Source: Antedon mediterranea (taxonomy: Eukaryota; Echinodermata; Crinoidea; Comatulida; Antedonidae). Taken from it: 64,000 nucleotides of DNA. Below, piece after piece: positions 24,920 to 63,437 of this stretch. Within the stretch, counting starts at the first letter, position 1. Every line of letters starts with the position of its first letter. Made by a program: the position numbers and the translations under genes. The notes beneath the pieces are model-generated. The model was given only the letters and a program-made list of their open reading frames with translations. It was not told the DNA's origin and made no database searches. The DNA is taken from contig NC_092670.1 in the NCBI RefSeq assembly GCF_964355755.1, forward strand, positions 33,281,795 through 33,345,794. The letters are read 5' to 3'.

Positions 24920-25397
24920 ATCTTCAGTTAGTTTATAATAATACAGTAGGAAAATCATCCTGCTGTACAAGAAAAAGTAATGAACTTATGATTCTGTTTA
25001 CACCGAAGCACTTTTTGTGCGTTAGAGGCATTAGCTTTTCATACAGAATAAATTATAACTCAAAATATAAATTAATTCAAAAGCCTCGCTAGAACGTATC
25101 AAATTGATAATTGTTGATACATAATTTTAAAATGATATATTTTGTATTTGTATTGTATCTCGCTTTCAAGGAAAGACGAGTTAGGTTTTTTAAAGAGAAG
25201 TATGATGTTTGATGTAAATAAATAAAGTTAACTAATAAGTTCATAATAAATTCATCGTCATCTTCATGAATCATTGTTTTTGTACATTGTGTTTTAAATT
25301 TGATGTAAGTGTAACTGTCAAAGGTCAAATAGTTGCATTAACTACAGGCAATTTGTGGATTGACTCAAAACAAATTGCAATAGTTTCAAAACTTTTC

Positions 25398-25640
25398 CTG
25401 ATTTTAATCGTATCCTATTCATTATCACTGTGCGCAAGTACAACCAAAATGGGTATAGTATAGCGCATAATGCTAAACTTGTCACTGATTTTAATCGTAT
25501 CCTATTAATTATCAGTGTGCGCAAGTACAACCAAAATGGGTATAGTATAGCGCATAATGCTAAACTTGTCACTGATTTTAATCGTATGATATTCATTATC
25601 ACTGTGTGCAAGTACAACCAAATATGGGTATAGTAGCACA
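25398..25640. repeat. 87-bp tandem repeat, about 2.8 copies
   Basis: The unit starts with CTGATTTTAATCGTAT and contains GCGCAAGTACAACCAAAATG and GCATAATGCTAAACTTGTC. Successive copies start 87 bases apart (ATTTTAATCG at 25401, 25488, 25575). Because 87 is a multiple of three, open frames on both strands span it, but they have no other protein-like features. Confidence 0.85.
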
Positions 25641-36264: not shown

Positions 36265-36930
36265 AATAGTGAGATTGCAACCTAATTTTCCCATAGGGAG
36301 TGAGATCTTTTTTGAACTGGGAAGTGAGATTGCAACCTCGCTCTTCTGTGGGAAGATTGAAAAAGAACCCAGATTGAGATCTTCCCTGAAGTTGACAGTG
36401 AGAGTATAACCGTACTATTCTATGGGGAATGAGATCTGTCATTGAACAGGACAGTGAGATTACAACCTCACTTTTCCATGGGGAGTGAGATCTTTCCTTG
36501 AACTGGACAGTGAGATTACAACTTCACTCTTCCATGAAGCGGGTGAGATATTTCCTGAACTGGACAATGAGATTACCTCACTCTTCCGTAGGGAGTGAGT
36601 GGGATCTTTCCTTAAACTGGACAGTGAGATTACCTCACTCTTCCATAGGGAGTGGGATATTTTCTTGAACTGGACAGTGAGATTACAACTTCAATCTTCC
36701 ATGAAGCGAGTGAGATATTTCCTGAACTGGACAGTGAGATTACCTCACTCTTCCATGGGGAGTGGGATCTTTCTTTGAACTGGACATTGAGATTACTGTA
36801 CAACTTCAATCTTCCAAGAAGCAGGTGCGATCTTTTCTGAACTTGACAGTGAGACTGTTTCCCTTAAATGAAGAGAGATTATAATCATCTCACTCTTTCC
36901 TGAACTGGAGAGTGAGATTACAACCTCTTC
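36265..36930. repeat. Degenerate tandem array, unit ~60-70 bp, about ten copies
   Basis: Variants of GTGAGATTACAACCTCACTC, TTCCATGGGGAGTGAGATC and TTTCCTTGAACTGGACA recur through the whole stretch. Unit length varies because pieces have been gained and lost. It is non-coding and lies about 1 kb beyond the 3' end of ERICH3. Confidence 0.85.
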
Positions 36931-38891: not shown

Positions 38892-41800
38892 CTAGAAAAA
38901 AAGAAAATTCACAATTTGAATTGATATAACAATAATCTAGGCATAAGATATTGTTGCTGAAGTAAGGTGTAAATGATGTCATGTCATGTTCCAATTCCAG
39001 TTATTATCTTTCAAATTTAAATAACTTGTTACAATAACACACCTTCTCTTCCTTTTTCTCTGCATCAGAGTCAGATGATGAGCTGCTTATGCTGCTAGTA
39101 GAGCTTCCACTGCTTGAAGCAGAGCTAGGCCGTCTGTCACTGATCTTTTGCTTGGACTCTACTATTGTACTTTCTTCAATAACTGGTTCCTTAGTCTCAG
39201 TATCCGGCTCAGTCACATGAGGTGTTTCTGTTGACATCTGCTCTGAATGGCCATCCTTCTTAACATCAGTTTCAGATTCTCTTATGGCAGAGGGTCCTGC
39301 AGTCTCTGGTGGACTCTGTCTTCCTGTGTTACTTCTCAAACTACTGGCAGATCCCATTGATGTTGGTTCTTTCACATCTTCTGAAATGATATAAATATTA
39401 AGTATACAGTACATAAACTATGTACCAGTAATGAACAATTACTGAATAATAAAAGCGTGTAATTTGAGAAGTTAATAATTTTGGTAAAATGGTATACATA
39501 CCTTTATCGCTTTCTTTCTTTTCTTCTTTTGATTCATGAGGTGATTCTTCGTCCTGATGTTTTTCATCATTGTGTTCTTCCCCATTGTTTTCATTTAGTA
39601 TTCCAGCATTATCTTGCTTAGATTCTTCATTAGGTACACCATTAAGCTGTTCATGCATTACATTTTCTTTGTCTGAATTTGTTGTACTCATAGTCTTAAC
39701 TTGTTGCTGTTGTCTTCCAATTCCAGCTTGTTCCGTCAAATCCTCTTCCTTTGTATCTCCACCATCACCATTGCTTGCAACATCTTTAATATTTTCGTTG
39801 TCACTATGATTGGCCTGGTCATGGTCATCCTTCACTTTGTGACTGCTTTCTGGTTCATTGTTAACAACAATACTTTCTTTATCCCTTTCCTCTTTACCTT
39901 CTTCCTTTATATGACTTTCTATGCTCCTTTCATTTTCTCTGTCCTCTGTATCAGAATGCATTTTATTTTTATGTTCTTTTACAGAGTTCTCATCAGACTT
40001 AGAATCATCTTTGTCCCTTTCTTCTTCAGAGTCTGTAGCTACAACATCCTCTGAATTGTAATGTCCAAAAGATGTTTTACGACCTTCAACCTTTACGGAA
40101 TGGACGCTACCAGAGGTTGCACTGACTGATTTTATACTTTCTGAAAATACATGGAACAAATAGCTATATAATTAATCAACTATGATGAACGCTTCCTTAG
40201 AGCAGAAGAAATAACTTCATATAACATTCATATTTGAAATAAATCTTAGAATTCTCAACAAGTAGAAAAACAAATAAATTTAGTTGTATATTTTATATAC
40301 ACACACTAACAATATATGTTGAAAATCAGTTTTTTAATCTATATGTAATTAATACTAACCAGGTTCTGATTCTTCAGCATAATCAAACTCCTCTTCCGCA
40401 AGTTGTTCATCATTCTTATTAGAGGTACTTTCAGAATTTACCACTACTGGCTTTTCTGCCATTGATTCTTGATCACTACTCACATCTCTCTGTACATCGT
40501 CCATGTTCTCTTGATTTAAGTTTTCATTATTACTTGCTCCTTCATGACTAAAATTCTCTTTCTCAATTATGTATGATGAAGTACTTCTTTTATCTTCATC
40601 TTTTTTCTCATCTTCATCAGAAATTGTACTTCTTCTTTCAGCTTCTTCATTATCTTTTTCTCCTTCATCTGCTGAGCTCTCTTTTGTGTTTTTTTCTTCT
40701 ACATTTGGTTCATCATTTTCCGATTCATCAATTTTTCTTTTGAGTGTTTCCTCTTTTTCATTATCTCGCTGTTGTTTTATTTCACTGTCGGGTGCTTCCT
40801 CAATGCTTTCATTATCAGATGTCTCTTTAATACTTTCTCTATCAGATGCCTCTTTTACGCTTTCTCTATCAGATGTCTCATTTATACTTTCTCTATCAGA
40901 CATTTCTTTCACGCTTTCTCTATCAGATGCCTCTTTTACACTTTCTCTATCAGATGTCTGTTTCATGCTTTCTCTATCAGACTTCTCCATAGTACTGTCA
41001 TTATCAGAAGTATGTTGTTTGTTATTAGAATCTTGTTCGTCTTCTGACGACTTTCTTCTACTCTCAGCATCTGAAGTGTTTGTAATTTCATCTTTCCTTG
41101 CATCAGTTTTATTATCTTCCTGCACTGTCTCTTTCTCACTCTTAATGTCAGAATTTTCTTTCTCATTCGAAGTCTCTTTAACTTCCTCTTCTTCAAAGAA
41201 TTCATTCTCATAATCATCTGGAAAAAACAATTTCTAAATAACATTTGGTAATAGGTTATGTTTATTTTTAAGTTGTTAAGATGTGACAATGTGTAGGTTG
41301 AACAATAAAAATGGGTGATTTACAGAAAAAATATTGTTTTAGAAATTATTATTATCATTTTATTTGCAAACGTTCCTGTCAATAATAAGAGGGTAAAGGA
41401 CAAATACAATCATTGTGGTGGTAACCATTAATACCTTCAGCAGCCTGTTCCTGTTCTATGATATCATCTTTTTCATCCTCCTTCAGATCATCTGCTTCTT
41501 TTTTCTCTTCATCTTCATCTTTTTCAAAATCATCATCATTGTCATAGGATGTTCCTGCATCAACTACAAGATATGAAACAGAAATAAAAGATAGATTAGA
41601 AAAATCAGTATTTAGAAATGTTATGAACATAATTTCAAACCATGTTGAGCATGTTTTTGAAAAACCATCAAGAAAAATGTCTTGTTTTCCATAAAAAGGA
41701 AATCAATAACAATTTAATATGATGGGAAATAAAACAGGTTACTACAGGGTAAAACAAATACATTTCTTCATGATCATACATAAATCATACAGAAAAGTTC

Positions 41801-47800: not shown

Positions 47801-50800
47801 AACAAAAATGCACAACCAAAATTATTTTCAATTTTCAAAGCATATGAATCAAGCTAAAATAAATAATTTTATAAACATCCCATAATAACAACTAGCTAAT
47901 TAAAAACTTACTTCCTGGTTCAACCCATCCTTGAAACACGGTAAGATTCTCGCCTCCACAGTGTTGTTGACATATCATGACCTCATCACGGTTATCTTCC
48001 TTCTCATACGATACCTTAAAGCTCTGCCCTCTATAGCGTACTGTCACGTCACACATAGTCTGTGGTTGAGTGGCATGAGAGTAAGCTGGCTCTTTACGAT
48101 GCAATGAGGATCCTCCTCCCTGTAGAGAAACATTACAAGACTGCCATATCTCTCAAATAAATTATTATTTAATTAACTATTAGGACTACAGGTAATGCTA
48201 GTTAAGCACAGGCAATCAGGCAATCACCTTCTCTGTTCTCAAATAAAAAATAAACGATAATGGTTTTAATCAATTTGTTTTAAATTACATTAGTGTAGAA
48301 CCCCTATTACTCTGGTACCAAAGTAATAGTAAGGTGTTCCTTGAATAGGGGTTGACTGTAGTGTAAAAATATATATTTTCCCTTGTTTCATTAGAAAATG
48401 TCCGCTTAATAGAGGTGTCCCAAATTATGTTGCTGTACTGTATAGACATTTTTGAAATGCATTACATAGTCAATATTAAAAATGTAATAGACTTACGCGT
48501 GTTGACTGAGCCTTTATGCGTTTTCCATCTTTACTGTAAATAGGTCTTCGTCCATTACGGCCAGATGCTGATCGACCACCTCTGGCACTCTTTGGTGGCT
48601 GAGGTGAAAGGGCATAGTCCAATTTGTATGGTGATTTGCCGCCTGTGTCTGGTTCCTCTGTCATGTGCAATGAAGCACTGTTCAAAGCATGTGAATCAAG
48701 CTAAAACATATTTTTAAAATAATTTAATTTGAACATCCCACAATAATGTGAATAAATTTTAAAAAATACATAAAGCTCTATCTACACTATTAAACTTTAT
48801 GTGCCCATATATGGACGCGATGATATCATATCAATACCATATTTGGGCACAGCACACTTTTTTTGTCAAACTTGTTTAGGAAAACTACTTTTGCTTTAAA
48901 ATATCAAAGATTTTCACATCCTTGTTTATTGTATACTATTATTCTACCAAAGAAAAACTACAAAATAAATTAGAAAAACGTAGAATAGAAATAAATTCCA
49001 TGTTTTGTTGTACAGTAGTATTGTACTACAATAATTAATACATTTTTTAAATAACTAAATTCCTATCTTTGAATAGTCAACATTATAAAAGAGTATGTTG
49101 TAAAAGTAATGTAATTCCATTCAATTATTGTCAAGGGATGTAAAGTAACTTTTATCTTTTCGTATCACGGCTCTCCTTCGGACAGAAGAGCAAGGCTATT
49201 GGTTTATCCAAATAGGCTAGGCAAAAAATTAACTAAAATAATAATCAATTGATGAATGAATTAACTATTTGTTAAAATGTATCATATGTCAATTAATCAT
49301 ATAATTATGTATCCTTATTAAGTATTAATTGATAAATGAAAGATTTTAATACATACACCCTTTAAACATGATGAATCCAAGTCCTGGCTATCACTGTCGG
49401 TATCATGTTTTACACGGTGCACTGGAAATCCGTCTTTGTCGACATACACAGATGACTAGAAAGAAATACAAATCAATAACAGAGCTTCTTAATTTAAGCC
49501 AAATAAGGAAATTTAGAACAATTTAGAAAGTCAACTTATCATAAAAAGTATTGTATGTATTAAGTACTAAATAAAAAATAATTGCAAGTTTAAAAATGTG
49601 AATTAGATAATACAATATAGTTTTAATACAAACTCTGTTATGATGAAAACATTTATAAAATTGCTGCTTATTTTTCAATTAAATCAGATTTGCTTCATTA
49701 GAGCAGAATAGTAATCATAAAAAAGGCTGTGGAGTGGCTTGGTGGTTATGATGCTTGACTACCACTGCAAAGGTCCTGGGTTGAAGTCCCGTCACATGTC
49801 AGGATTTTTCTAAGGACAAAATTACAACTCCACTCCCAAAGTGTTGTTTATGTAGAGCATCTTGTGTACATGTTTGTCTTGTAAACCTCTGAGGGTCCCT
49901 AATGATCAGTAATTGCTGGATGGATCACCCTCATTAAATATGGTAAATGTCAGGATTTTTCTAAGGACAAAATTACAACTCCACTTCCAAAGTGTTGTTT
50001 ATGTAGAGCATCCTTGTGTACATGTTTGTCTTGTGAACCTCTGAGGGTCCCTAATGATCAGCAATTGCTGGATGAATCATTAAATATGGTAAAAAAAACA
50101 CAAAAAATAAATTAACAGCTGGTTGCATTCAATCATAAATCAGTCATTTGAATTTGAATATTGAATATGAATTCAGCATACTGCAGTTTCATTTCAGTAA
50201 AATAAAATATAAATTTATAAATCAGTACTTTTTGGGTAGACTCATTAGTCTCTAATGAGAAAGCCACCACTGGACTGAAACTTAACTTAGCTGAATTCTT
50301 GTTAGAATTTTTATATTTCTAATTTGCTCATATAAATAAATGAATAGTGTAATGTTTTATGTTATAACTTATACCATCTACTATTCCTATCTCAAAATGC
50401 TGGATCCACCATGTCAGACAACCCATAACATCAAATACAATTTTGTTTCCTTCTATTGACTATTATATTATGTATTGTGTTATGTGATGATAATTAAATT
50501 TCTTATCGATTTTTAAATAAACTATAAAAATATAATCAATTGTTAGCACAAACTACAATACCTGGGCTGTCGTAAAAGTTTCCTTAAGACACTATTATGG
50601 TACTAATACAATTGTTACAAAGATAAAATGCACATTCTTTGTCATTGATCATCATATTATTATTACCCACAAACAAAGAGCATTATTTTTTCTTAACAGC
50701 AGTAGTTAGTAGTTCCTCAGGGTACTGTCAACGCACCTAAATTATATTCCTTGTATACGGCCGATTACAGATCTTTAAATGATGACCTTTGTCCCGTTGG

Positions 50801-53800
50801 TAAATTCGCTGATGACACTTGTACTATTGGTCTCATAGTTTCAAACAATGATGAACATTATCGTAGCGAAATACAAAGATTTGTTAAATTTTGTGACGAT
50901 AATTATCTCCAAATAAATGCATCTAAAACAAAGGAGATGATCATTGATTTTAGGACTAAACATAAATTTAATTTTCAACCAATCACTATCAAAGGTAAAG
51001 AAATTGAAATTGTTGACCAGTACAAGTATCTAGGTATTGTTTTCAATGATAAACTGAATTGGGGAGACCATATAGACTTCATCAGCAAAAAATTAAATCC
51101 CAGAATGTATTGTATGAGAACTTTATATAAATTTAACTCCTGTGATTTGATGTTACTTTTGTTCTATAGTTCCGTTATATGTAGTGTTTGGGACGTACTG
51201 CCTCTCCTGTTGGGCTGGTAATGTTACCGGAGGGAATAAAGGACGCCTTGAAACTTTCATCCGTCGGGCTGGTAAAATGATTGGTCTGGAACTGCCTTCC
51301 ATTACCGATGTGCACCTAGAACACCTCCAGAAAGATTTTGAACGCATTGAGTCGGATGCCTCTCATCCTCTCCACAAAGTGATCATAGACCAACTTAATC
51401 CAAGTGGTAGATTGAGGCTCATATATATATATGCCAAATCCTTTATTCCCTCCGGTATCATCAAGTACAACAGAAAGTCAAGAAGATAATTTTATCTTGT
51501 ATTTTTTGATGTTTTTATATGAATGGTTTTATGCTATATTTGTTTTTATTGTGTTTTCTTGTTATTATGATGAGCAATGAATTTCCTTTTTGAGGATCAA
51601 TAAAAGTTATCTTATCTTATCTTATCTTATTAGATCATAGCATAATGAATACTAGGCCTACTATGCAGAATAACAAAGCACTCAAAACACTAAATTTTAG
51701 AATTAACCATTTTAATATCCCTGGTTTAAATTAAAATGGAAATACATTTGAATTTTAAGAGAACAAGAAAATTCATGATAAGAGGAGAAAATTAATAAAA
51801 GGATTAAATTCTAAAAATAGAAGAAAATATAGTCGTAGAATGTAACATACAGTAATACAGTAATGTGAAACTAGACTATATAATTTAACATGTCTTTTTT
51901 TTACCTTTTTCTTGCTAGACTTTGGTCGTTTTGATGGTGCTGTGTATGGTCGTCTGCTACCAGGGGGATGGCTGGGAGTCGGTTCAACGGCCGATTTAGG
52001 TCGCCTGGAGCGAGGGGACAAGTATGGCACAATGTCTTCATCTCCTTGATGAGCCTTTTCAAGCTGAAAATGAAATTGCAAATTTAATTAATCAACTCAT
52101 TTTTTTTTAACGGAAATATGCAGCTGTAAAAATGAATGCAAAACACATTATTATTAATATTAAGGAGAGGAAAGAAGTAAAACCAATAATTTGCACTGTC
52201 AAACTGTCATAATGTTTTTCACTAATACAGTATGTTTACCAACAATGTTGAAAAGAGCTTCATTTTATTCCTACTGTAGCTCATTAACAGATGAAACATC
52301 AAATCAAAAACATACATTATACTACTGGAAACACAAAATTACTCTACAAAATACATTTTTCTTTACTCTTTAACTTTATACAATTATTTAGCAAGCTTTT
52401 TAAGGATAATTATAATACACATTGTTTATTGCAGAAACTCATAAACTTTTAGATTAAAACAAACTAAATCATGTTATTGTAGTAAAAAATTGTAGTTACT
52501 GCAGTAACTGCAGTAGAGTAATTGTCTACTGGTTTATGGTTTCATGTAACACTTACCCTGACTCTTCGAACCAACTCAATCTTTGCAATCTCCTCCAGTT
52601 TCTTTTTAATGTCACTCTGGCGATAGCGCTCTATATCAAGAGCCTTGTGCACGATGGCCTGCGCAAGTAGATCTCGAACATGTTTCTGATGCTCCTTACG
52701 GGCCATATTAAGCCTGTACGTTGTTTCTGTTACGAGGTCTCCACTTTTGGAGATCAGGCCGGCCCTGCGAAGGTGTCTCCGCATTCGGGTATTGTTGAAA
52801 TAGCCAGCTAAGTGCTTGTCCTGCAAGCTGTTGTAGCTTGACAGCGGTCTGAAACAGAGTAGAATATACTCTAAGTATAATTAAATTAACAAGAAAAACC
52901 AAACAACATGAAATTATAATTTCATAATAACATATTTAAACCAAATTAATGTAAATAATTTTGTACTTGAGTATTGTCATTTTAAAATTAAACTACTGTA
53001 GGCCTACATCTTCTTCCTTTCAAACTCTTCCTTGACACATGACTTCCAGTTATTTTCACACAACATTTTAGTAAATGGAATTTGTCTCCTAATACGTTTT
53101 ATAAAATGTTGATTAGTCTCCTGCAAAAGTGTATGCTTTCTCCTATCACATAGTTGACACACAGGCTTATGCGAAAAGCCATAAGGCTTACGCTCCGACA
53201 TGTTTAGAGACATGTTGAGTATGCTAGCATACTTAGCAGTGATTGAGCTTTCTGCTTTGCTAGCTTCCTAACGAATGGACTCTGTTACTATGTAATTATT
53301 AGCTAATTATCACATTTTTTCAGAATCCAATGAGATAATAATGCTCTTCTTCAAAATCAAGGAATAATGCTTTTGAAGGACAAATACTTCTCTACAGTAG
53401 TACATAATCTATGAGTCGATTATAATGAAGTAAATGAAATTGCTTTGTAAAGTGGAATTACTGTACACGGCGATCATTCTATAATTAGCATCTTAAAAGC
53501 ATAATGGTGGTGAAAAAGTTTAAAATAAGACATTGATTGATAGTTTGAAAGATAATTTCATACCATGATGATACTAGATAGCAAATAAAAGCATTTTAGA
53601 ACAATTAGAATGTTAATGCATTTTGTAATTAGGTACAGCAAGATGTTTTAAATGTTAAACAGTTTCAAGTTCTGCTTGTGCATGTTAAGTCACAAGTATC
53701 CAGGGTGGTAACGTGACGATTCGGTCCGGGACGATTCGGCCCGGGACTATTCGTCTCGGGACGATTCTGCCCTGAGACGATTCGGCACACTTATATTTAT

Positions 53801-56800
53801 CGGCTTTGATATGCATTTTATAAGCATAAAATAAGCTTTTTTCCCCAAACTTTAATGTCAGAGAGACGATAGGGTAGTACTACTAGGAGTAAAGATGCAA
53901 TAAAGCAAACATTTTGAAAAATTGTCGAAAATGATCATTTTTTTGTCACGCGAATGACGTAAACAAGATTATATTATATTACTGTATATCAACATTTTCA
54001 ATATCATTATCAATAAAATACGGATTGTTAAACACCTTTAAAAACTTGATAAATAGCAAAAAAAATTTATATGAATTTGGTCTAAAGTGAGACGTTTCGG
54101 CCCACAAAGTGGGATGTTTTGGGCCGAATCATCCCACCAAAAGTTGGGCGAATAGTCCCGGGCCGAATCGTCTCAGGGCCGAATCGTCCTGGAACCTCCA
54201 GGGTCATTACAGTATACTGTACTGTTGTGCTAAATAGAAAAAGCCAACTTTATTCCAAACAGCAATATTCAAAAAAGTGCTTACACAGTACTACAGTTAC
54301 GTATATTAAATTATCATTTATCATTACAACATTTTATTTACTAATAATTATAGAAATTATAACTATAGTGAATCTTTGTACTGTACAATAGTATACTGAT
54401 TTTTACTATGTCCAGATGACAAAAAATAGGCCTTAATGTCACATATAATACAAAATAACTTGTCCGTACTTTACATTACAGATACAGTATTGTTTGCCAT
54501 TTAGTTGGTGAATTGGATTGATAATCCACTAACCCCTGAATATACAGTACATAAATATTATATTTGCCCACTACATAGTAGTGTATAAGATGACATGATA
54601 ATTAACTGAGGTTGGTCAAGCAAATACTGTGCATTAAAATATGACGTCAAGTGAATGAATGAATTATAGCACCAATTCATGCATACACAACATAATTTAT
54701 CCGCAGGAAATCAATGCAAAAAATCAATTACATATTTCTGTAGGTAGGTTAAATATCAATGTTAAACCAACAACACACTGTAGTGTTAAAGATCCATTAT
54801 ACAGTAGTTTTTTTTAAAGTAATTACAATAATCTTAAATTTCAAAAGTATATTCATTTTTGTTGTTGTCTTTACATTTATTTCTTCTTCTTTTGTCTTTT
54901 GTTGTTTTATTTTTTGGCTTACATCATGTACTTATGCTCTGTCTACACTATCAAACTAGTGTGCAAAATGTGCCCAAATATCATATGATATAGTGATACA
55001 GTATGACATCATCATGTCCATATGGGCACATCACATATTTTTAATCACATACTGTATTCTGTTAAAAACTGTTCCAGGTATAAAAATATTTCAATGCAAT
55101 GAGATCTAACCAGGCCAACTACTAATGTATACTTATGATGGCCATCACAGGTTTAGGCTTGTATTTATTCGCTATGCATACACATTTTACAGTATTGATG
55201 CAGATAACAATTGCATACATTAGGAGGCTTTAATAGTAAAAATGTATTCAACAAATGCACATAATTCATGGTTATTTTAACCAAAACTGAATACCATATT
55301 ATCAAGGCTTAAAAGTTAGTACTCTATTCCTACTGGCTAGTATCTAAAAGTAGGTCCTAGATCAGGTTGTGTAAAGGCTTCAAGTCTTATCTTTGTTTGC
55401 CAGTCAAATGCAGTAAATCGTGGTAAAGTTGACAGTGGAAATTACGCTTCAATTACTGTAATGTGTAGGTGTAAGTGAATTGTGCCCCCCTTTATCTAAT
55501 TACACACACCATTCAAAAGTCTGATTTGTTTACGTTTCAGTGTTTAACAAATAATGAAACGTGATGCGTCCAGGCAACCTTCTCAATTATCTTAAGCAGA
55601 CCATTACGTAGGCAATTATTATGAAGTGCGAAATGGTATTGCTAATGTTATGTACTACTACTGTATGAAATTGAACTTGAAACATAAGGGCAATCACAGG
55701 CCTCTTGTCTTTTGATAATTTGCATATATAATGTGTGCTAAAAATTGCATTCAAGAGGGGTCCTCCTAAATACAAAGCCCTACCAAGTCATATCAATTAT
55801 AACCAAGCCCTAGCAGTATAAAGTGTACAAATTTACATTATACAGAATATAATATTTATAGTGTTACTGTTAATTGCATTTTCATCAAAAAATCATATTT
55901 TTTAGGCGATTTTGGTGTAAAAAATGTGAAACAATCAATTATCCCCATGAATGTACAATGCGCTAATAATGCGTGATTGCATCAACTAGTAGTACATAGT
56001 ATGTTTGCGTTGACATACAGTATGATGGAAAATCTAATGTTGACACTAATTATTAAAATTAAAACACTCAAAATATATTCTATGTTGTATAAATTCATAC
56101 TGGATGGCTTTGATAATTTATACTGTAAAAGGCCTGGTCTTTTTTAAATTGTACTGTAGTACTGGTACTGGTTCAAATAACCGTCTCACAGAGACATCTG
56201 GTAGCCATTGACTTGAAGTTAGCATTTGGATGTGTTACTTTTAAATGTACAGTATGAGAGTGACTACAGTATTACCAAATTGCACAGTCACAAAACAACT
56301 TATAAAACAGTTCATATAGGTGTGCTACAAACTACACTCCTCAATACATTCAGTGGTGCTGTGGGTGTGCCGTTTGTTTGGTGTGTAGAAGTTTACCAAA
56401 TTTAAGTGTGTTGTAAATCGCACTCCACAAGGGCAGTTTAGGAATGTGTTAGGTATAGTAAGTGATCGCACTCGCTCACCTCAAAAGAAAAGACCTGTTG
56501 TAGGACTTGGTAGGGCTTGGTATTTAAGAGGACCCTTCAGGAGTGTTGTAAGTGTTTTGTTTGATTAGTGTGTAGAAGTTAAATCGCACACCGCAAGAGC
56601 ATGTTAGGAGTTTGGTAGGTCCTAAATCATTGTTCCAAAGCGTTTGTGAAGTCCTACAGTAGTGCAGCTCTGATTGAATTATTTAAATAAATTATTTTTA
56701 GCCATTACTATTGTTCCAATGCTAATTAGTTGACGCAATTAATTTAAGAATGAAGCCATACAATTACAGTAGAATTTAAAAATGTCTCAGAATTATTCAA

Positions 56801-58221
56801 ATACTATAAGTAGTTAAAAAAACCTTAACAAACATGCTTTCCAACAGGGGGTTCAAATGTTTGGCAAAAAGGAACATGCGAAAAATGATTGTATGCGTGC
56901 ACTTATAAATATCCATGGGTCATTTCATCTCCCCCCAAAAATCCTACCTCCTTCAATTTTCCTGTAACTTTGTGTACTGTATGATGATAGCGAGTACATT
57001 TTAATGTTATCGGACTAGCAGTTTTCAAGATATTGCAATTTAAATTTGTCCTTGAAGTTGACACGTTGAGCTACGTAATGCGCTACTCACTTCCCTTCCT
57101 ACATGTTAAATGTACACTGAAATCATTAACATTAATAAAACCATGTTTGTAAAATTTTGTGAAATATATTTAAAACAGGAACAGGAAAGGAAAAGTCGGT
57201 TTACCATGACAATGGTGGCAAATTCGTCTGCCAATATCTAAGGAAGGCACCTCAACCTCACTCCTCCCCAATCTAATCTACAAATGTAACTAGTAAGCAA
57301 AGACGATGTGATAGAGAGTGGAAACCAACCAAAAATCTGAATCTGGAGTCTCTGAACTAGGTACAGTAGGTAGGCCTAGGCAAGTAGAACTTACAAGATA
57401 GTTATGCACTTGTCAATTGTATGACCCACTATACGACCTCCGGGAGAGGTGCGTCATTTGTCCGATGTGCGTCATACTTTTGAATACCATGACGCACCCG
57501 TGCGTCAAAAAGGTGACTTACCTTTAGGTGACCATGACGCACCCATTTTGACGCAATGTGACCATGTTGTTTATGATATGGTGGGTGGTAAAGTGACGGA
57601 CATTGACACACCTTGTTCATTGATGTGACGTACCATCTAGGTTTTTTGACGCACCCCTGCGTCAGTAATTATTTGTAAATGACGCACCCATGACGCACCT
57701 CTCCCGGGGGTCGTATGTATAGTGGGTCATACAATTGACAAGTGCATTAGTACGTAGGTAGCACACGTCACTGACTGACTGTACAGTAGCAGACAGACGT
57801 TCCATCATAATTTATTATTATAAATATAAAAAAAACTCAAGAAATAATGAATTGAATGAACGATTTCATCTGTCACTTTCTAGTTAGGCCCTAGGCCTAA
57901 TTAATAATTAAATAATGTATTATAATATACTTATACTAGGCCTATCTACTCAGTACTAAGCGTACATTATATAGGCTAGGCTAGGCCTAGCCTTAGTTAT
58001 CAGGCCTAGCTTATACTCCTATTGTAGGCTGCTAGGCCTAGTATACTAGGCCTATAGGCCTAGCTAGGCCTAGGACAACAAGGGCAAGATTCAAGAAGAA
58101 GGTAGGCCTAACGCGTTTTCAGTAAAACATTAAACAACAAAATTAAAAAGCTAGCCTAGCAGTATCTCATCTCGTATTTATGACAGATATAATTGTCTTA
58201 CCCTGGGTCTGCATGCGACAT
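37961..58221 (-). CDS. ERICH3: Glutamate-rich protein 3 with C-terminal leucine-rich repeats
   Basis: Coding exons in transcript order: 58221-58202, 52848-52557, 52063-51905, 49455-49357, 48700-48497, 48119-47912, 47609-47423, 47069-46912, 41563-41435, 41217-40360, 40140-39502, 39380-39043, 38891-38794, 38495-37961. All junctions keep phase; the total is 1,307 residues plus TAA. The start MSHADPG leads into SYNSLQDKHLAGYFNNTRMR, the hallmark of vertebrate ERICH3. Exons 6-8 give the conserved domain (DUF4590, as I recall) with CQQHCGGENLTVFQGW, RHRGYPFGMTFYVN, CCEYKYKPG, LGGRRGHFRY and SPCYK. Exons 9-12 are strongly acidic and low complexity. The last two exons add ribonuclease-inhibitor-type repeats. 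ERICH3 in mammals is a ciliary protein affecting cilium formation. The boundary between exons 4 and 5 has two possible solutions; I chose donor GTATGT with acceptor TGTTTTAG. Confidence 0.92.
40360..41217 (-). CDS. ERICH3: ERICH3 acidic exon with 9-residue tandem repeat
   Basis: This 858-base exon codes for a lysine, glutamate and serine-rich segment. Near its start (about 40985-40795) the motif SDRESVKEA is repeated about seven times in tandem (variants SDRESMKQT, SDRESINET, SDRESIKET, SDNESIEEA). It corresponds to a 27-base repeat in the DNA. The charge pattern suggests a disordered or coiled segment, and the SDRES/SDNES serines fit acidic-directed (casein kinase 2-like) phosphorylation; that is inference. 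The antisense open frame here is only a shadow of the biased codons. Confidence 0.88.
41564..44774 (-). other. ERICH3: ERICH3 intron 8, distal part: no gene seen
   Basis: About 3.2 kb of very AT-rich sequence within the intron bounded by exons 46912-47069 and 41435-41563. A short GA run occurs at about 43457-43472, and the octamer-like ATTATTAAAAAATAGCT is duplicated at 44379-44410. No conserved coding frame. Confidence 0.5.
44779..46847. mobile_element. 2.07-kb non-autonomous DNA transposon with Tc1/mariner-like ends
   Basis: The left end CAGTACAGGACAGAATTATT followed by GCA (44779-44800) is the inverse of TGCAATAATTCTGTCCGGTA and CTG (46824-46846), with one mismatch. TA flanks both ends, as expected for a TA target duplication, and CAGT termini are typical of Tc1/mariner elements. 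The subterminal regions are packed with CAACGC/GCGTTG words (44810-44890, 45580-45670 and 46690-46820). No transposase frame is seen, so it would move only with help. It fills much of ERICH3 intron 8 and lies about 60 bases from exon 46912-47069. Confidence 0.8.
47837..47895 (-). repeat. ERICH3: Duplicate of an ERICH3 exon edge within an intron
   Basis: On the minus strand this reads TTATTTTAG followed by CTTGATTCATATGCTTTGAA, nearly the same as the acceptor and first codons of the exon at 48700 (TGTTTTAG then CTTGATTCACATGCTTTGAA). The intronic sequence before it matches as well (GGGATGTTTATA against GGGATGTTCAAA). The copy lies 17 bases beyond the donor of exon 47912-48119 and is probably a non-functional duplicate, though it retains a usable-looking acceptor. 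Confidence 0.65.
48298..48425. repeat. Inverted-repeat remnant (AGAACCCCTAT...)
   Basis: AGAACCCCTATTACTCTGG at 48299 pairs in inverse with AATAGGGGTTGACTGTAGT at 48343-48360. Part of a similar element occurs at 61065-61210 (GTAGAACCCCTTTCTTG and ATAATAGGGGTTTTAC). It lies in an ERICH3 intron. Confidence 0.5.
48771..48890. mobile_element. Palindromic MITE, family 1, copy 5
   Basis: The left end TAAAGCTCTATCTACACTAT and internal GTGCCCATATATGGAC with ATATTTGGGCACAG are clear. The right end is truncated near CAAACTTG. The element lies in an ERICH3 intron just upstream of the exon at 48497-48700. Confidence 0.75.
49731..49945 (+). mobile_element. tRNA-derived SINE (family B), copy 2
   Basis: GGAGTGGCTTGGTGGTTATG, then GGTCCTGGGTTGAAGTCCCG (box B region), CAACTCCACTCCCAAAGTG and GTTTATGTAGAGCATCTTGT match copy 1 at 19047. 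The copy is longer at its 3' end, with CTCTGAGGGTCCCTAATGAT and TTGCTGGATGGATCACC. It is in the ERICH3 intron between exons 49357-49455 and 51905-52063. Confidence 0.8.
49946..50092 (+). repeat. Tandem second copy of the SINE B 3' body
   Basis: From TGTCAGGATTTTTCTAAGGA onward the body of the preceding SINE is repeated, through GTTTATGTAGAGCATCC and CTCTGAGGGTCCCTAATGAT to ATTAAATATGGTAAA, but without the tRNA-like head. It therefore looks like a tandem duplication inside the insertion rather than a second insertion. Confidence 0.8.
50710..51632 (+). mobile_element. 5'-truncated non-LTR retrotransposon (Rex1-like)
   Basis: The frame 50751-51221 covers the end of a reverse transcriptase: KFADDTCTIGLIVSNNDEHY (catalytic FADD box), FCDDNYLQINASKTKEMIID, DQYKYLGIVFNDKLNWGDHI and LFYSSVICSVWDVL. 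A frameshift near 51200 moves it to the frame 51184-51489, which continues with RLETFIRRAGKMIGLELPSI and VIIDQLNPSGRLR. The 3' end is AT-rich and finishes in an ATCTT/TTATC pentamer run at about 51608-51630. The pattern resembles Rex1/Babar-type elements described in fish. It is truncated and frameshifted, hence inactive, and lies in an ERICH3 intron on the opposite strand. Confidence 0.8.
53004..53213 (-). CDS. Unrecognised basic cysteine-containing small frame; possible alternative ERICH3 first exon
   Basis: A 69-codon frame in the first ERICH3 intron starts MSLNMSERKPYGFSHKPVCQ and contains CQLCDRRK, IKRIRRQIPF and an EEFERKKM end. It has a more protein-like composition than its surroundings, but I recognise no family. 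If spliced at AAGAT|GTAGGC, about 10 bases before the stop, it would join the second ERICH3 exon in frame (phase 2), providing a different N-terminus. The donor is poor, so this is speculative; it could also be a chance frame. Confidence 0.25.
   Translation of the reverse strand: MSLNMSERKPYGFSHKPVCQLCDRRKHTLLQETNQHFIKRIRRQIPFTKMLCENNWKSCVKEEFERKKM
53700..54205. mobile_element. ~500-bp element with GGGACGATTCGGCCC-type terminal repeats
   Basis: At the left end CCAGGGTGGTAACG is followed by four variants of GGGACGATTCGGCCC. The right end has the inverse set (GGGCCGAATCATCCC, CCCGGGCCGAATCGTC, GGGCCGAATCGTCCTGG, then AACCTCCAGG). The middle is AT-rich. No coding frame, so it is a non-autonomous element within ERICH3 intron 1. 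Confidence 0.75.
54934..55055. mobile_element. Palindromic MITE, family 1, copy 6
   Basis: The left end GCTCTGTCTACACTATCAAA and internal GACATCATCATGTCC followed by ATATGGGCACATCACA identify the family. The right terminus is lost. It lies in the first intron of ERICH3. Confidence 0.7.
55754..56540. repeat. ~790-bp segment bounded by inverted repeats
   Basis: GAGGGGTCCTCCTAAATACA and AAGCCCTACCAAGTC at 55754-55788 are matched in inverse by GACTTGGTAGGGCTTGG and TATTTAAGAGGACCC at 56502-56536. The arms are about 35 bases with few mismatches. The interior has no recognisable frame. It lies in ERICH3 intron 1. Confidence 0.6.
57405..57746. mobile_element. 342-bp MITE built of TGACGCACC repeats
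   Basis: The termini TGCACTTGTCAATTGTATGA and CCCACTATACGACC (57405-57438) are mirrored by GGTCGTATGTATAGTGGG and TCATACAATTGACAAGTGCA (57709-57746). TTA flanks both ends and may be a target duplication. Inside, TGACGCACC or its inverse GGTGCGTCA recurs about seven times, several as inverse pairs such as GACGCACCCGTGCGTC. No coding frame; ERICH3 intron 1. Confidence 0.8.
57890..58085. repeat. AGGCCTA-rich low-complexity tract, second instance
   Basis: Dense TAGGCCTAG and CTAGGC words about 120 bases downstream (transcript sense) of ERICH3 exon 1. Like the tract at 16855, it is near the 5' end of a gene, in the first intron. Confidence 0.75.
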
Positions 58222-59592
58222 TATATAACTTAATTACAACATATACATATAGAAAAGAGTGATTTTAATCACGTCGATCGCACTCTCACAAACGCACCCA
58301 AACAGCCTTTCAGTTTATTTTTCTCGGTTGTCAAAACGTTGTTAGGCCAGGTCAAAGGGTAAAATAACATTACGTTTTATTTTGTAGGTACAAATTTAAT
58401 TTGTTTGTCCATAATAAAAATTTTCATTACGAATTTTAAATTTTACTTTGAGTTAAAAATATTTATTAAAAATTCAGCAATATAAGTATCTTGTTTTAAA
58501 TGACATCATATATAAATATGTTCATTTTCTTGGCTTATTAAAATAGCAGCCAGCTTTTTGTCGTGGTTTTGTTTGCATATAGCGAAAGGGCAGGGGTCAC
58601 GCCAAAGAATATAATTCTTTGGTCACGCGCGAAAAAACACCGGAAGTGTTGAAGTTTACACCACCTGACGAAAAAACGTCGTGTGTGTTATGCGCGATTT
58701 GAACGATTTGCGCAATTTGAAATTGCGCAAAAAAAATCCTTGCGCAATTTGAATTGAAACATGTGTTTCAAATTGCGCAAGCAACGTATTAAATTGCGCA
58801 AGTAATCTGCAAATTGCGCAAGGTTTTTCGACAGATTGTGAAATCATGCACACCCATATTTTTATAGTATTTAATTTCTAAGAATGATTCAAAATTAAAG
58901 ATAAATATCGCATTTCCTTATTTTAGTAGTGCAAATATTGTTATAAGTTAGCATACCGTCGAAGAACCGACGAAGGAAAACGAAGCGGTGGTGTTCCACC
59001 AGGCGGGCGCGGCGCGGGCGGCCGGCTATACTAGGCCTACTCTAGCCTAGCTAGGGTCTGGACTACTGATACTGACTAGGTTACATGGCCTAGCTTAAAC
59101 TAATATTAAAAACTTAAAAAGTGAGTATTAAACATTATCTTCATTGAAATGGTCTTATTTATATAATAAAATACTAAATTTTAAACTCCTCTGCCTAGGC
59201 CTAGCCTAGCCATGTATGGGAAAATTTACAGTTCGTTTTCAAATTGCGCAAAGGTGTCATATTGCGCAAGAACTATCTTGCGCAATTTACAAATTGTGCA
59301 GCGCAATTTAAAATTGCGCAAAGATTTTCTTGCGCAATTTGAAATTGCGCAAGTTGATTGCGCAATTTGAAATTGCGCAAAAAAATCCTTGCGCAATTTT
59401 AAATTGCGCAAGAATTCTTTGCGCAATTTCAAATTGCGCAAGGATTTTTTTGCGCAATTTCAAATTGCGCAAATCGTTCAAATCGCGCATAACATGTGTT
59501 TTAAACCAAAAGAAATATCCGGTACCTAGGCCTAGGGCCTAGAGTTAAAAAATAGTTTTCATTGATTGACTTGCATGATGCTATAATAAAAA
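58222..59592. promoter_or_regulatory. Divergent promoter region of ERICH3 and SLC22A18
   Basis: The 1.37 kb between the two start codons holds both transcription starts. No TATA box was clear for either. A GC-rich patch (58998-59033, GGCGGGCGCGGCGCGGGCGG) stands out from the AT-rich surroundings in the centre of the inverted-repeat element and may belong to a CpG-rich core promoter. Most of the rest is the TTGCGCAA element listed separately. Confidence 0.45.
58682..59505. mobile_element. Inverted-repeat element carrying ~20 TTGCGCAA octamers
   Basis: The ends are inverse copies: GTTATGCGCGATTTGAACGA at about 58686 and TCGTTCAAATCGCGCATAAC at about 59472-59491, continuing inward through the octamer pairs and AAAATCCTTGCGCAATTTG, about 70 bases in all. 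The self-complementary octamer TTGCGCAA occurs about 6 times in 58700-58825 and about 14 times in 59235-59490, often in pairs separated by TTTGAAA or TTTCAAA, so that each pair is itself a hairpin. The interior contains a GC-rich patch. No protein frame apart from repeat-derived ones. Confidence 0.85.
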
Positions 59593-62500
59593 ATGAAGTT
59601 GCGATCCCATAAAATGCTTTCAAATCAGTTAAATCCTAGTGATTCCCAAGCTAGGCCAAACACGGAAGAGGAAGCAACGACGAAGACAGATACCGATGAT
59701 GATAATCAGGCCACACTGCCACGTTTGATGGATGGTGACAGTAGCACAGATGGGCCTAGACTCAGAAAAACTAGACAGTGGGCCTATCTAGATATGGACG
59801 TGATAAAAGTCGTCCACGTTAACCTGTTTTTATATTCAACATGTTTTTCGATTCAAACAGGTGTTCTGCCGGTGAGAAATTAATTATATTTAATTTTATT
59901 ATTAATTAATATAAAAAACAAGTATTTTATTTTGCTAGGCCTACTAGAGGCTAGGCTATGTATGGCTACTTTAATTATTTATGCTCTTTATTATTCAAAA
60001 ATATAATAAATTGTTTATTTTGTTATTAGTTATAAATAATGTGAATGTAAATTCTTTTTTCAGTACCTTACTCGGTCATTGAACCTAGACACTGTTCAGT
60101 TTGGCTACCTCCAAACGACGTTTTATCTTGTACAATTAATAGGTGGTCCTTTGTATGGCCGATTCGCAGATGTACACGGCAGTCGTATTGCAATGCTTCT
60201 CGCATTTTCATCTGCAGCTCTTATGTATGGAATTCTTGGAGCTGCTACTTCAGCATTTGGCGTCTTTTTATCAAGGCTACCATCGTTGTTTCTTCATGCA
60301 TTTCATGGTTTGTAATTGTTCTCAAATGTGTTGGACAAGTATTTAATAATAAACCCCTAAGAAGTCAGCTTTAAAACAATAACATGCTATTTTAAAACTT
60401 GTGTAACTTTTAAACTACTAACTCTTACTTTTAAAGCTAACAAATAGAGTGTATTTTAATGTTTAGACACCTTACCTTTGAAATCTTTTATATTTTAATG
60501 TTCACCAATCTTTGTTCACAAAATCTGTTGACAAAATCATTTTAATCATGATAATTAGTTAAAATAGAAATTAAAAATAACTTAAAATATAAATAATCAT
60601 TAAAAAATATGATGTATTCTAATGATTTAATAAAATGTTAATTAATTTTTTTTTTTTTTTTTTTAAAGCTTCACAAATAGTTATTGTTGACGTGACTGAA
60701 CCATCAAAACGAGCTGCTGCTTTAGGTCGCATGTCATTATCATACGGACTAGGAAGAGTGATTGGTCCGTTAATTGGAGGCCAAGTTGCAAGCAGATTCA
60801 GGTATACAATAAGTTCATACTCTACTAGAAATTATTTTTAAAATATCGCAGTGGCATAGCGCAATGGCCTGAAGGAATTTAGTGGCCCTCCAACGCTGGT
60901 GGTCTCGGGCGTTTTTTAGCCTTTTTCGACATATTTTAATGTCTTTTTCCCCTGGGGACTGCTCAGGGGCCCAAATAAGCTCTGGGGCCCCTGTGTTTAG
61001 CCAGTGAGCACAGCCTTTACGCCACTGTATCTAAATTACAGACAATTATGACACAGACGTACAGTAGAACCCCTTTCTTGAAACAGCCTTGTTCTGTGGA
61101 CACTTTCCTCTGAAACAAAGAAAGAACAGTCAGTACCTTGTATATGTTTTAACCCTTTTATTAAGCAGACACTTTCTTATTCCCGAATGTGTCTCCATAA
61201 TAGGGGTTTTACAATAATTTAGTTAGTACTGGAATTGATCAATGTTTTAAATCCAAATTACAACCATACTTACAGTAGAAGTGGTGCCCTCCTGTGTGAC
61301 GGCCCTATTCAGGAGACAGACACCACTATAAGGTGACACTTTCCCATGAAACGAAAGACAGCAATATAAGTTTTAACACCACAGCCAACCACTATTCTGG
61401 AGAAATTTTTCTGTAAAACAAACCAGCGACAAAAATGTGTTTTATCTTCATGATCCCTGTTCAAGCGACATCCCTATTAACGGGTCTTTCACACCTGTTC
61501 CGGTCCGGCGAATCGAACATCAATGTTTCGTTTTCACGTGGTTATGTGCCAATCGATATGCGCGTAGCCGCGTGAAAACGAAACATTGACGTTCGATTGG
61601 ATTTTCCGGCGCCGGACTGGAACCGTGCCGGAACAGGTGTGAAAGACCCTTTAGACCGGACACTTGGTTTGGGGTTCTACTGAATGAAGATCTGCTGTGC
61701 CATAATTGCCATCATCATTTTTACCTTCTTGTACCAAATTACCAAAAGCATTATTATTTTTCTTTACAATCTTTTGTTTTCTTAAATTTTTTTTTGTATA
61801 GTGAACAGTCAAGTGCCTTTGTTGCGTGTGGAGGTTCTTTACTAAGTGTTTTAATCATCCTAAAATTCATTCCAAAAAACACAAAAACCTCTGGTGCTAA
61901 AGATGCTAGTGGAGGTGATTATAAATTTGTTTACAGATTTGTGCCATGCTGTAGTGTTCGTTGAACACTTGTAGAAAATTATATTATGTTGTCTATGTTA
62001 TTATTATGTTGGTAATTTATCCTTTTATTATATGTATATGACGACCGTGATGGTCTTGTAACAGGTCATCTCTCAACAGGTCAACCAAATGATATTTTTG
62101 TTGTCTTATAATTGTTTTGTATATATTTGTGTCGAATAAATATTGAATTGAAATTAAATTATCGAGAAGTTTTAGTTGATTCGATGGCAGCTAAGTTACA
62201 GTATCAGACAAAATAATTTAACACTTGATTTACTCAAATTTAAACAGCTGTTTATTAAATAAAGTGCGAAATACTCGAGCATATGCCTTTATATATTTAT
62301 TTATCTGGCAATTAAACATTAAGCAAATTGCATGCTTGAATTTATTGATTGTTCTACTCCATTTAAACATTAAAATACTGATTCAAGTTTGTTTTTTAAT
62401 TAGGTCAATGCACTGTGTATACTATTATTTTCCTCCATTGTGGATATATTGTTGTTCTGATTTACTCTTCTTGTTTTACAGCTACTCCAATCTTTAATTG

Positions 62501-63437
62501 AATTCTTTTCATATTTTTAGAAACCAAGTCTTCCGAAGGAATTTTCAACATCTCCAAGATAACTTCCATTCTCACCAAATCTCCAGGAGCAATATTCTTC
62601 ATTTTCTTTATGATGATTGCTGGTGCACCAAGTTACTTGTTTGAAGGCATGTTGTCAGTCATCACTATGGAAACATTTAAATTAACCCCAGATCAGACGG
62701 GTTTCATACTTTCATTTTCAGGAGTGATTTCAATGGTAAAGTTTTACAACAATAACATCACACATTACATTATAAGTTAAGATTGGTTAGTTGAGTTTTA
62801 TGGAGGTTGACGAAATTAAACTGTATAAAGCTTCACTAAACTATATAGTGTGCTATAACTTGTTTTAAATTCATCCAAACATAAGGGGTAGTCAGTATAT
62901 CTAGTAAACCTTGAGTATTCCAGGCGTTTTTTTAAAGCATAGCATATGGCAATGGACAACTTTGCCATTGGTTAACCAAAATGGGCCTAGGAAAGAGCCT
63001 AAATGTATCACTTTTGGGAGACTTAAAAATTTTTTCTAGTTACAATCCAGTCTTTGAGAAAAAAACTATTACCATATTTATTCGAATAAAGGCACCGGGA
63101 CATTTATTCCAAATGATGTTGTGAGAGAGGCATTTATTCGAAGTGGAGGTAGGGAGACATTTTATTCAAAGCGGTGCATTTATTCTAATAAATATGGTAA
63201 CTTTAAACTCGATTGTTGAAGCCTTACTGTGTTTCTTAATATCATTAGGGACAGAGAATAATCATATTGATGTGTATGAAAAAAAAAAGTAACTTACACT
63301 GTTGCCATTAACATTCACTTAATTTGTTTACCTAGCTTGTTCAAGGCTTCGGTATTGGTATTCTGACAAAGAGGTACAGCGAAGCAGTCATTTTAAACGG
63401 GTCGATTATCACTCTACTTATTTCTTATTCATTTCTG
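59593..63437 (+). CDS. SLC22A18: SLC22A18-like major facilitator transporter, partial (5' six exons)
   Basis: Exons: 59593-59871, 60064-60307, 60669-60801, 61802-61914, 62521-62735, 63336-63437. All have GT-AG borders and consistent phases, giving 362 residues, with the gene continuing past 64000. An in-frame TAA lies 6 bases before the ATG. The first about 70 residues are a hydrophilic acidic cytosolic extension. Then come membrane segments with FGYLQTTFYLVQLIGGPLYG and RFADVHGSR (the MFS loop 2-3 motif), VIVDVTEPSKRAAALGR, GLGRVIGPLIGGQVA (motif C region), a hydrophilic central loop, SPGAIFFIFFMMIAGAPSYL and GFILSFSGVISM-LVQGFGIG. These blocks line up with human SLC22A18 (ORCTL2/TSSC5), a 12-helix member of the DHA1-like group whose substrate is uncertain. 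About nine helices are encoded here. Confidence 0.92.
60848..61027. mobile_element. hAT-like MITE (CAGTGGCATA ends)
   Basis: GCAGTGGCATAGCGCAATG at 60849 and TTTACGCCACTG at 61017-61027 are imperfect inverse ends of the CAGTGGCGTA type found in hAT elements. Inside are CAGGGGCCC and GGGGCCCCTG words. No frame. It lies in SLC22A18 intron 3. Confidence 0.6.
61055..61690. mobile_element. Nested inverted-repeat elements in SLC22A18 intron 3
   Basis: An outer family shows CAGTAGAACCCC-type ends (61062 and, inverse, 61671-61683, GGGGTTCTACTG). Within it lies a very clean 168-base palindrome at 61482-61649: GGGTCTTTCACACCTGTTCC at the left and GGAACAGGTGTGAAAGACCC at the right. Its inner arms TGTTTCGTTTTCACG and CGTGAAAACGAAACA also pair. 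The inner element is young judging by arm identity and may have TTA target duplications. Confidence 0.7.
63064..63205. mobile_element. ~135-bp MITE (ACCATATTTATTCGAATAAA ends)
   Basis: TTACCATATTTATTCGAATA at 63069 pairs in inverse with TCTAATAAATATGGTAA at 63185-63201. In between, CATTTATTCGAAG-like words repeat. A related AC-rich piece occurs at 11690-11760 in a VPS13B intron (ACCATATTTATTTGAAAAAT). It lies in SLC22A18 intron 5. Confidence 0.65.

Follow-up and report, generated by a model that had tools for sequence, protein, structure and literature searches.

The repeat cluster under study lies between two divergent genes of Antedon mediterranea, within a 64-kb window (the whole stretch of DNA analyzed). 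The minus-strand gene encodes a DUF4590 domain at 47.9-48.15 kb (E 5.5e-8, passing the Pfam cut-off), and its first coding exon, in which MSHADPG is followed by GTAAG, probably resides at 58202..58221. A splice-phase scan of positions 52781-60000 yielded two candidate first exons in the right phase, and MSHADPG at 58221 joins in phase to PLSSYNSLQDKHLAGYFNN. The joined N-terminus matched no Pfam family. ERICH3 has DUF4590 and an N-terminus resembling MSHADPG-PLSSYNSLQDKHLAGYFNN, and the start codon of this ERICH3-like gene is probably at 58221 (-). The plus-strand gene starts at 59593..59880, read in frame from the ATG, and encodes an MFS protein, putatively SLC22A18-like. MFS_1 was found in two of the following exons with E values of 3.4e-7 and 5.8e-8 (30.0 and 32.5 bits, just under the cut-off of 33.4), and the best solved-structure match of one plus-strand exon is MFSD10 (E 0.057). 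No Pfam match was obtained with the 59593..59880 first exon or with a further frame at 62502. Of the 1371 bases separating the two start codons, 809 are made up by a single element, which ends 464 bp from the ATG of the minus-strand gene and 98 bp from that of the plus-strand gene. The position assigned to it by the initial annotation, between divergent start codons, is supported for 58221 (-) and 59593 (+), the first exon of the ERICH3-like gene being derived from the splice-phase scan.

Structure of the element and of other repeats in the window

The element spans 58686..59494 on the plus strand, starts with TGTTATGCGCG and ends with CGCGCATAACA, termini which are common to dispersed copies, and is flanked by a TGTG target-site duplication (TSD; left copy at 58682..58685, right copy at 59495..59498). 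Its ends are terminal inverted repeats (TIRs), perfect over 50 bp (58686..58735, plus strand, and 59445..59494, minus strand) and 98.5% identical over 68 bp, in line with the repeats of about 70 bases described earlier; the interval 58682-59505 first proposed closely fits the element plus its TGTG duplications. Since the ends are inverted repeats, an LTR or solo LTR was rejected. A bacterial-type promoter scan of the window was set aside as irrelevant for an animal genome.

By exact count, the 64-kb window contains 20 copies of the octamer TTGCGCAA, all of them within 58708-59472. In 100 shuffles of the window it was found 0.83 times on average and three times at most, and chance clustering was rejected. 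The octamers form two clusters, as initially annotated (about 20 in 0.8 kb), six residing in the left arm (58708..58821) and 14 in the right arm (59244..59472). The interior in between (58822..59243) is free of octamers, differs between subfamilies, and contains no stop-to-stop frame longer than 48 aa. Within the arms, octamers are spaced by 15 or 16 bp in 11 of 18 cases. This spacing prevails in the right arm, where many adjacent octamers face each other as YTTGCGCAATTT-N-AAATTGCGCAAR, giving rise to nested palindromes of 25-27 bp.

Other repeats were noticed in the window. A second small inverted-repeat element of about 500 bp resides at 53704-54199, and has arms with GACGATTCGGCC(CGG) repeats (a 24-bp pair 100% complementary, a 28-bp pair 96% complementary). 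Similar GATTCGGCCC motifs are found also at locus L060, and the 53704-54199 element may represent a further family organized around short subterminal repeats. A reverse-transcriptase fragment at 50706-51489 (RVT_1 E 8.5e-9 for 50706-51218) lies next to or inside the minus-strand ERICH3-like gene, and was probably left by a retrotransposon. Tandem arrays are located at 15376-15680 (period 38), 25389-25635 (87 bp), 36375-36796 (56/110/167) and 40802-41008 (27/54/81 bp).

Genomic distribution of the family

The terminal 30-mer of the element, searched at up to 3 mismatches in the 354-Mb genome, gave 355 + 367 = 722 matches, its reversed control 0 and 0. The array 16-mer ATTTSAAATTGCGCAA gave 1463 + 1475 genome matches, and its control none; a few of the ATTTSAAATTGCGCAA places listed fall in other repeats (L061-L064). 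Judged by eye, the repeats at L061, L062, L064 and L035 are separate dispersed or satellite-like sequences rich in CGCG/GCGC words. They near-match the element end (e.g. AATCGTTAAATCGCGCG), and at L035 are fused to a true element end. The number of end matches suggests a family of about 360 copies and, by multiplication with some 20 octamers per copy rather than by direct count, some 7,000 octamers.

Thirty copies were aligned. They comprise the window copy and those from loci L001-L039 which have both ends, measure less than 900 bp and carry a left-arm marker; L001, which is the window copy itself, L008, L024, L028, L030, L032, L033, L035, L036 and L037 were left out, and loci from L040 onward are outside the alignment. 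Here, as in the TSD count below, sampling was not random: most copies come from contig C1, where they were chosen for a perfect terminal 30-mer. The median number of octamers per aligned copy is 19.5 (range 9-21): 29 of the 30 copies carry 15-21 octamers, the remaining one 9. The arms are common to copies whose interiors differ. The window copy differs from the family consensus by 0.3% (substitutions).

TSDs were monitored in 38 distinct two-ended copies, the window copy included, ends being accepted at up to 6 mismatches; lengths of 2-8 bp were tallied in one count, of 2-10 bp in another. An exact 4-bp duplication flanks 30 of the 38 copies and an exact 5-bp one flanks three (L002, L009, L034), while neither is found at five (L016, L022, L026, L039, L046). 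When left and right flanks from different copies were paired as a control, 4-bp matches were scored in 46 of 1406 combinations, 5-bp matches in one of 1406. The window element is a member of a dispersed family of non-autonomous DNA transposons. The TIRs, the TSD and the 722 terminal matches bear out its initial description as a mobile-type element, and the genome search for its ends that had been proposed at the time revealed a dispersed family to which the octamer arrays belong. The burst is fresh, high-copy and recently active, with clean ends and mostly clean duplications.

Unusual arrangements were met at a few loci. Three left ends lie on one strand 820-850 bp apart in contig C6 (5733643-5735489), which suggests a tandem array of the element. 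At L059 (142-190) two element ends are joined directly in a 49-bp relic lacking the interior. One family copy contains a nested insert (L008:780-1060, judged by eye) that is palindromic and in which words resembling TTCGTTTGAACGGATTA recur.

Target sites, class of the element and search for an autonomous partner

In the 30 sites with an exact 4-bp TSD, the duplication is preceded by R and followed by Y in 28 cases, T is found at position -2 in 26, and A at position +2 in 26, so the target pattern of the copies reads TR-NNNN-YA. Ginger2 elements, according to the available text of PMC2836005, have TGTNR ends, TIRs of about 50-180 bp, 4-bp TSDs and RTATAY targets, the TSDs of TDD-4/5 measuring 5 bp; the transposase of the Ginger2/TDD group features an H2C2 zinc finger and a DDE core, and lacks GPY/F or YPYY motifs. 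At the true register the Antedon sites score on average 4.23 of 6 for RTATAY, only 4 of the 30 being perfect. Scores are nearly the same at registers +2 (4.13, 4 perfect) and -2 (3.87, 1 perfect) because the motif alternates, and drop to about 2.0-2.6 of 6 at registers 7 or more bases away. The longer TRTATAYA separates the registers better, scoring 5.97 of 8 at the true one, 5.0 and 4.53 at the next ones. The target of the copies resembles the published RTATAY in a looser form. The other signatures found are termini of the TGTNR type (TGTTA...TAACA), TIRs perfect over 50 bp and 98.5% identical over 68 bp, which fit the 50-180 bp range, and TSDs of 4 bp (30/38) or 5 bp (3/38).

Assignment to the Ginger2/TDD group rests on these DNA signatures, from which the transposase class is deduced, because no transposase gene with element ends was found in six lines of search, all partial; in these, frames were judged by eye unless Pfam is named, and an intron-split or decayed transposase could escape. 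Thirteen stretches of contig C1 had apparently unpaired ends (L027-L039). Seven are paired copies, and the remaining six (L028, L032, L033, L035, L036, L037) contain a single frame longer than 110 aa, a transporter-like host frame in L032; L035 is the terminus fused to satellite-like repeats mentioned above. The interiors of L024 and L008 were used as DNA queries, and the best 40 of 45 and the best 40 of 153 candidates were considered. Eight partial interior matches were inspected (L040-L047). A Gypsy-type retrotransposon with 177-bp LTRs (RVT_1, RNase H, H2C2 and rve domains by Pfam) is nested in L041, and a fold-back element in L044; the other loci of this group contain no transposase-like frame longer than 120 aa. 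A search for rve integrases gave 838 candidates, 150 of which were scored and 10 opened (L048-L057). Nine of these loci were discarded as LTR-retrotransposon frames, as reverse transcriptase, RNase H or protease lie beside or near the integrase. At the tenth, L056:1077-1802, the integrase frame (rve E 5.1e-15, H2C2 E 3.8e-11) stands by itself: no octamer and no element end were found in its 2.8 kb, nor was a reverse-transcriptase or RNase H frame recognized on the same strand, and it could derive from an LTR element in decay or from a Ginger-type transposon. None of 77 rva_4 matches lies on C1 within 10 kb of the listed C1 termini, compared by eye. The terminal pattern with altered inner bases matched two places, a 2.5-kb copy with no transposase-like frame and the 49-bp relic, and the 8.8 kb upstream of a diverged end at C1:35.7 kb hold no transposase-like frame longer than 80 aa.

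As these searches yielded no transposase of the family, the element may be ascribed to another integrase-type group with TG...CA ends (Ginger1, IS3EU/GingerRoot, IS481EU), or to an undescribed one. TG...CA ends are shared by several related groups, as far as the available part of PMC10045372 tells, and the genome does contain integrase cores of the rva_4 type (77 matches). The insertion data make this assignment unlikely. As described in the portions of PMC2836005 and PMC10045372 at hand, Ginger1 targets CCGG or CCGT/ACGG, none of which is found among the 30 exact 4-bp TSDs, and IS3EU elements have TA..TA ends and 6-bp TSDs, whereas the Antedon copies have TG..CA ends and 6-bp TSDs in 0 of 38 cases. 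GingerRoot also has 6-bp TSDs, with mostly TA..TA and occasionally TG..CA termini, and IS481EU, reported from parabasalids, has TSDs of ~4, ~15 and ~25 bp (PMC10045372, same portion); the copies show 4-5 bp among the lengths of 2-10 bp tallied. A 4(5)-bp TSD associated to a RTATAY-like target is described, in the parts of the two sources consulted, for none of Ginger1, IS3EU and IS481EU. The family is probably a new, young, Ginger2/TDD-type non-autonomous MITE with dense subterminal palindromes, in which the octamers would serve transposition.

Conservation and role of the octamers

Over the 30 aligned copies, the outer 30 bp diverge by 0.4%, octamers by 0.7%, the rest of the arms by 2.0% and the interior by 10.8%. 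In the 15 copies of the main subfamily, leaving the outer 30 bp aside, no change was found at the 2030 octamer positions, while 26 were counted in the rest of the arms (2736 positions) and 44 in the interior (6056 positions). As aligners favour repeats, the comparison was repeated free of alignment in 14 copies. One of 238 anchored octamers was changed. Changes were more frequent among interior 8-mers (19 of 517; Fisher p 0.007) and among spacers (6 of 180; p 0.046), the latter being a weak contrast. The gap rate in the alignment is 6.0% in octamers vs. 4.0% at other arm positions. Octamers are not invariant across the family: the 15 main copies hold 3 one-mismatch and 283 perfect octamers, the remaining 15 copies 17 and 276, respectively. 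They are less variable than the neighbouring sequence, and the effect is modest. This suggests that mobile copies had kept their octamers, as expected for sites bound during transposition, and the TTGCGCAA palindromes are most likely candidate binding sites for the transposase or a partner. The alternative put forward in the initial annotation, that the repeats serve the element itself, fits best.

The palindromes could matter as DNA or RNA structures instead, by forming fold-back hairpins, promoting replication slippage or giving rise to siRNAs. The single-stranded element folds at -233 kcal/mol, vs. -106 +/- 6.6 for 20 shuffles (z -19), the number of octamers varies from 9 to 21 among the aligned copies, and the end-to-end relic of L059 exists. 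Hairpins, however, need complementarity only and no fixed octamer, and the window copy has 20 perfect octamers and no single-mismatch one, despite spacers differing in both sequence and length. Precise TSDs and the target motif point, moreover, to ordinary transposase-mediated insertion, and a structural role, though a serious rival in view of the fold, appears rather improbable.

The inserted array could also be a cluster of C/EBP (bZIP) sites driving or insulating both divergent genes, a case of transposon co-option. The initial reading of TTGCGCAA as a C/EBP-type site agrees with the available text of PMC10941009, where it is reported as the consensus of C/EBP alpha and beta (Kd 0.48 and 0.069 uM); binding to TTACGTAA is stronger, by 1.4- and 3.8-fold, and for NFIL3 a change in the flank was of marginal effect (same text). 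Twenty such sites reside in the 1.4 kb between the two start codons, and the element comes within 98 bp of the MFS ATG. The array is nevertheless a property of the family and not of the locus, as the octamer counts of the aligned copies indicate. The fuller C/EBP consensus is the decamer RTTGCGCAAY. It is rare, being matched by one of the 20 sites in the window copy, and by 36 of 559 sites over the 30 copies vs. 148 expected with independent flanks; this shortage may be compatible with C/EBP binding to the octamer cores. Because the array of the window copy is typical and its sequence so close to the consensus, locus-specific preservation is not visible: its perfect octamers reflect recent arrival, are uninformative on selection at the locus, and the copy is too young to show any. 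The regulatory co-option initially envisaged is possible, found no support, and as an account of the array is very unlikely. Very unlikely, too, is the broader proposal that the MITE, which would use a host bZIP site or have converged on one, recently spread C/EBP-consensus palindromes by the thousand over the genome (~360 copies x ~20, an estimate), with C/EBP-type factors acting as its cofactor or activity switch and copies like the one in the window bringing divergent promoters under C/EBP control.

The reading of the octamers as sites serving transposition leads to the following scheme. Acting in trans, a Ginger2-like transposase of the integrase type would cut the TGT...ACA ends and insert the element at TR-NNNN-YA, the target being opened with a stagger of 4 bp or, at times, 5 bp. 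In each arm the TTGCGCAA palindromes, for the most part spaced by 15-16 bp, would be bound by the transposase or a partner, and this binding would help to bring the element ends together. The copy described here would have landed recently in the interval separating the start codons of the ERICH3-like and SLC22A18-like genes, any effect on these genes being incidental.

Comparison with known elements

No account of a family with TTGCGCAA palindrome arrays was found in the parts of the literature covered. An unusually regular array of candidate sites between clean ends could lend itself to studies of end recognition by Ginger2-type transposases. The family also calls for caution with promoters, as perfect transcription-factor motifs that form a striking cluster there can belong to the machinery of a transposon. 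Should octamers bind bZIP factors, hundreds of insertions would provide a natural test of the spread of regulatory sites by transposons. A cluster of transcription-factor sites derived from a transposon, MER20, reportedly operates in decidual cells. Both are dispersed elements with binding-site-like motifs near genes, but the Antedon insertion is very young and known from sequence alone.

Ac/Ds and En/Spm are DNA transposons with arrays of subterminal repeats. As in the Antedon family, many short repeats are found inside both ends, in unequal numbers per side, and are kept in non-autonomous copies. The Antedon repeats differ in being perfect palindromes, mostly spaced by 15-16 bp, and in residing in a TGT...ACA element.

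The closest likeness is to Ginger2-1N1_NV of Nematostella, as described in the text of PMC2836005 available. Both elements have TGTNR ends and TIRs of at least 50 bp, and both are short, non-autonomous, multi-copy derivatives, the Antedon element measuring 809 bp, the Nematostella element 252 bp. The 4-bp TSD (5 bp in TDD) and, apparently, the AT-rich palindromic target are shared with the Ginger2/TDD group at large. The Antedon family, known from non-autonomous copies, has in contrast a looser target, TR-NNNN-YA, and about 20 octamers in its arms, arrays of this kind not being mentioned for Ginger2 in that part of the source.
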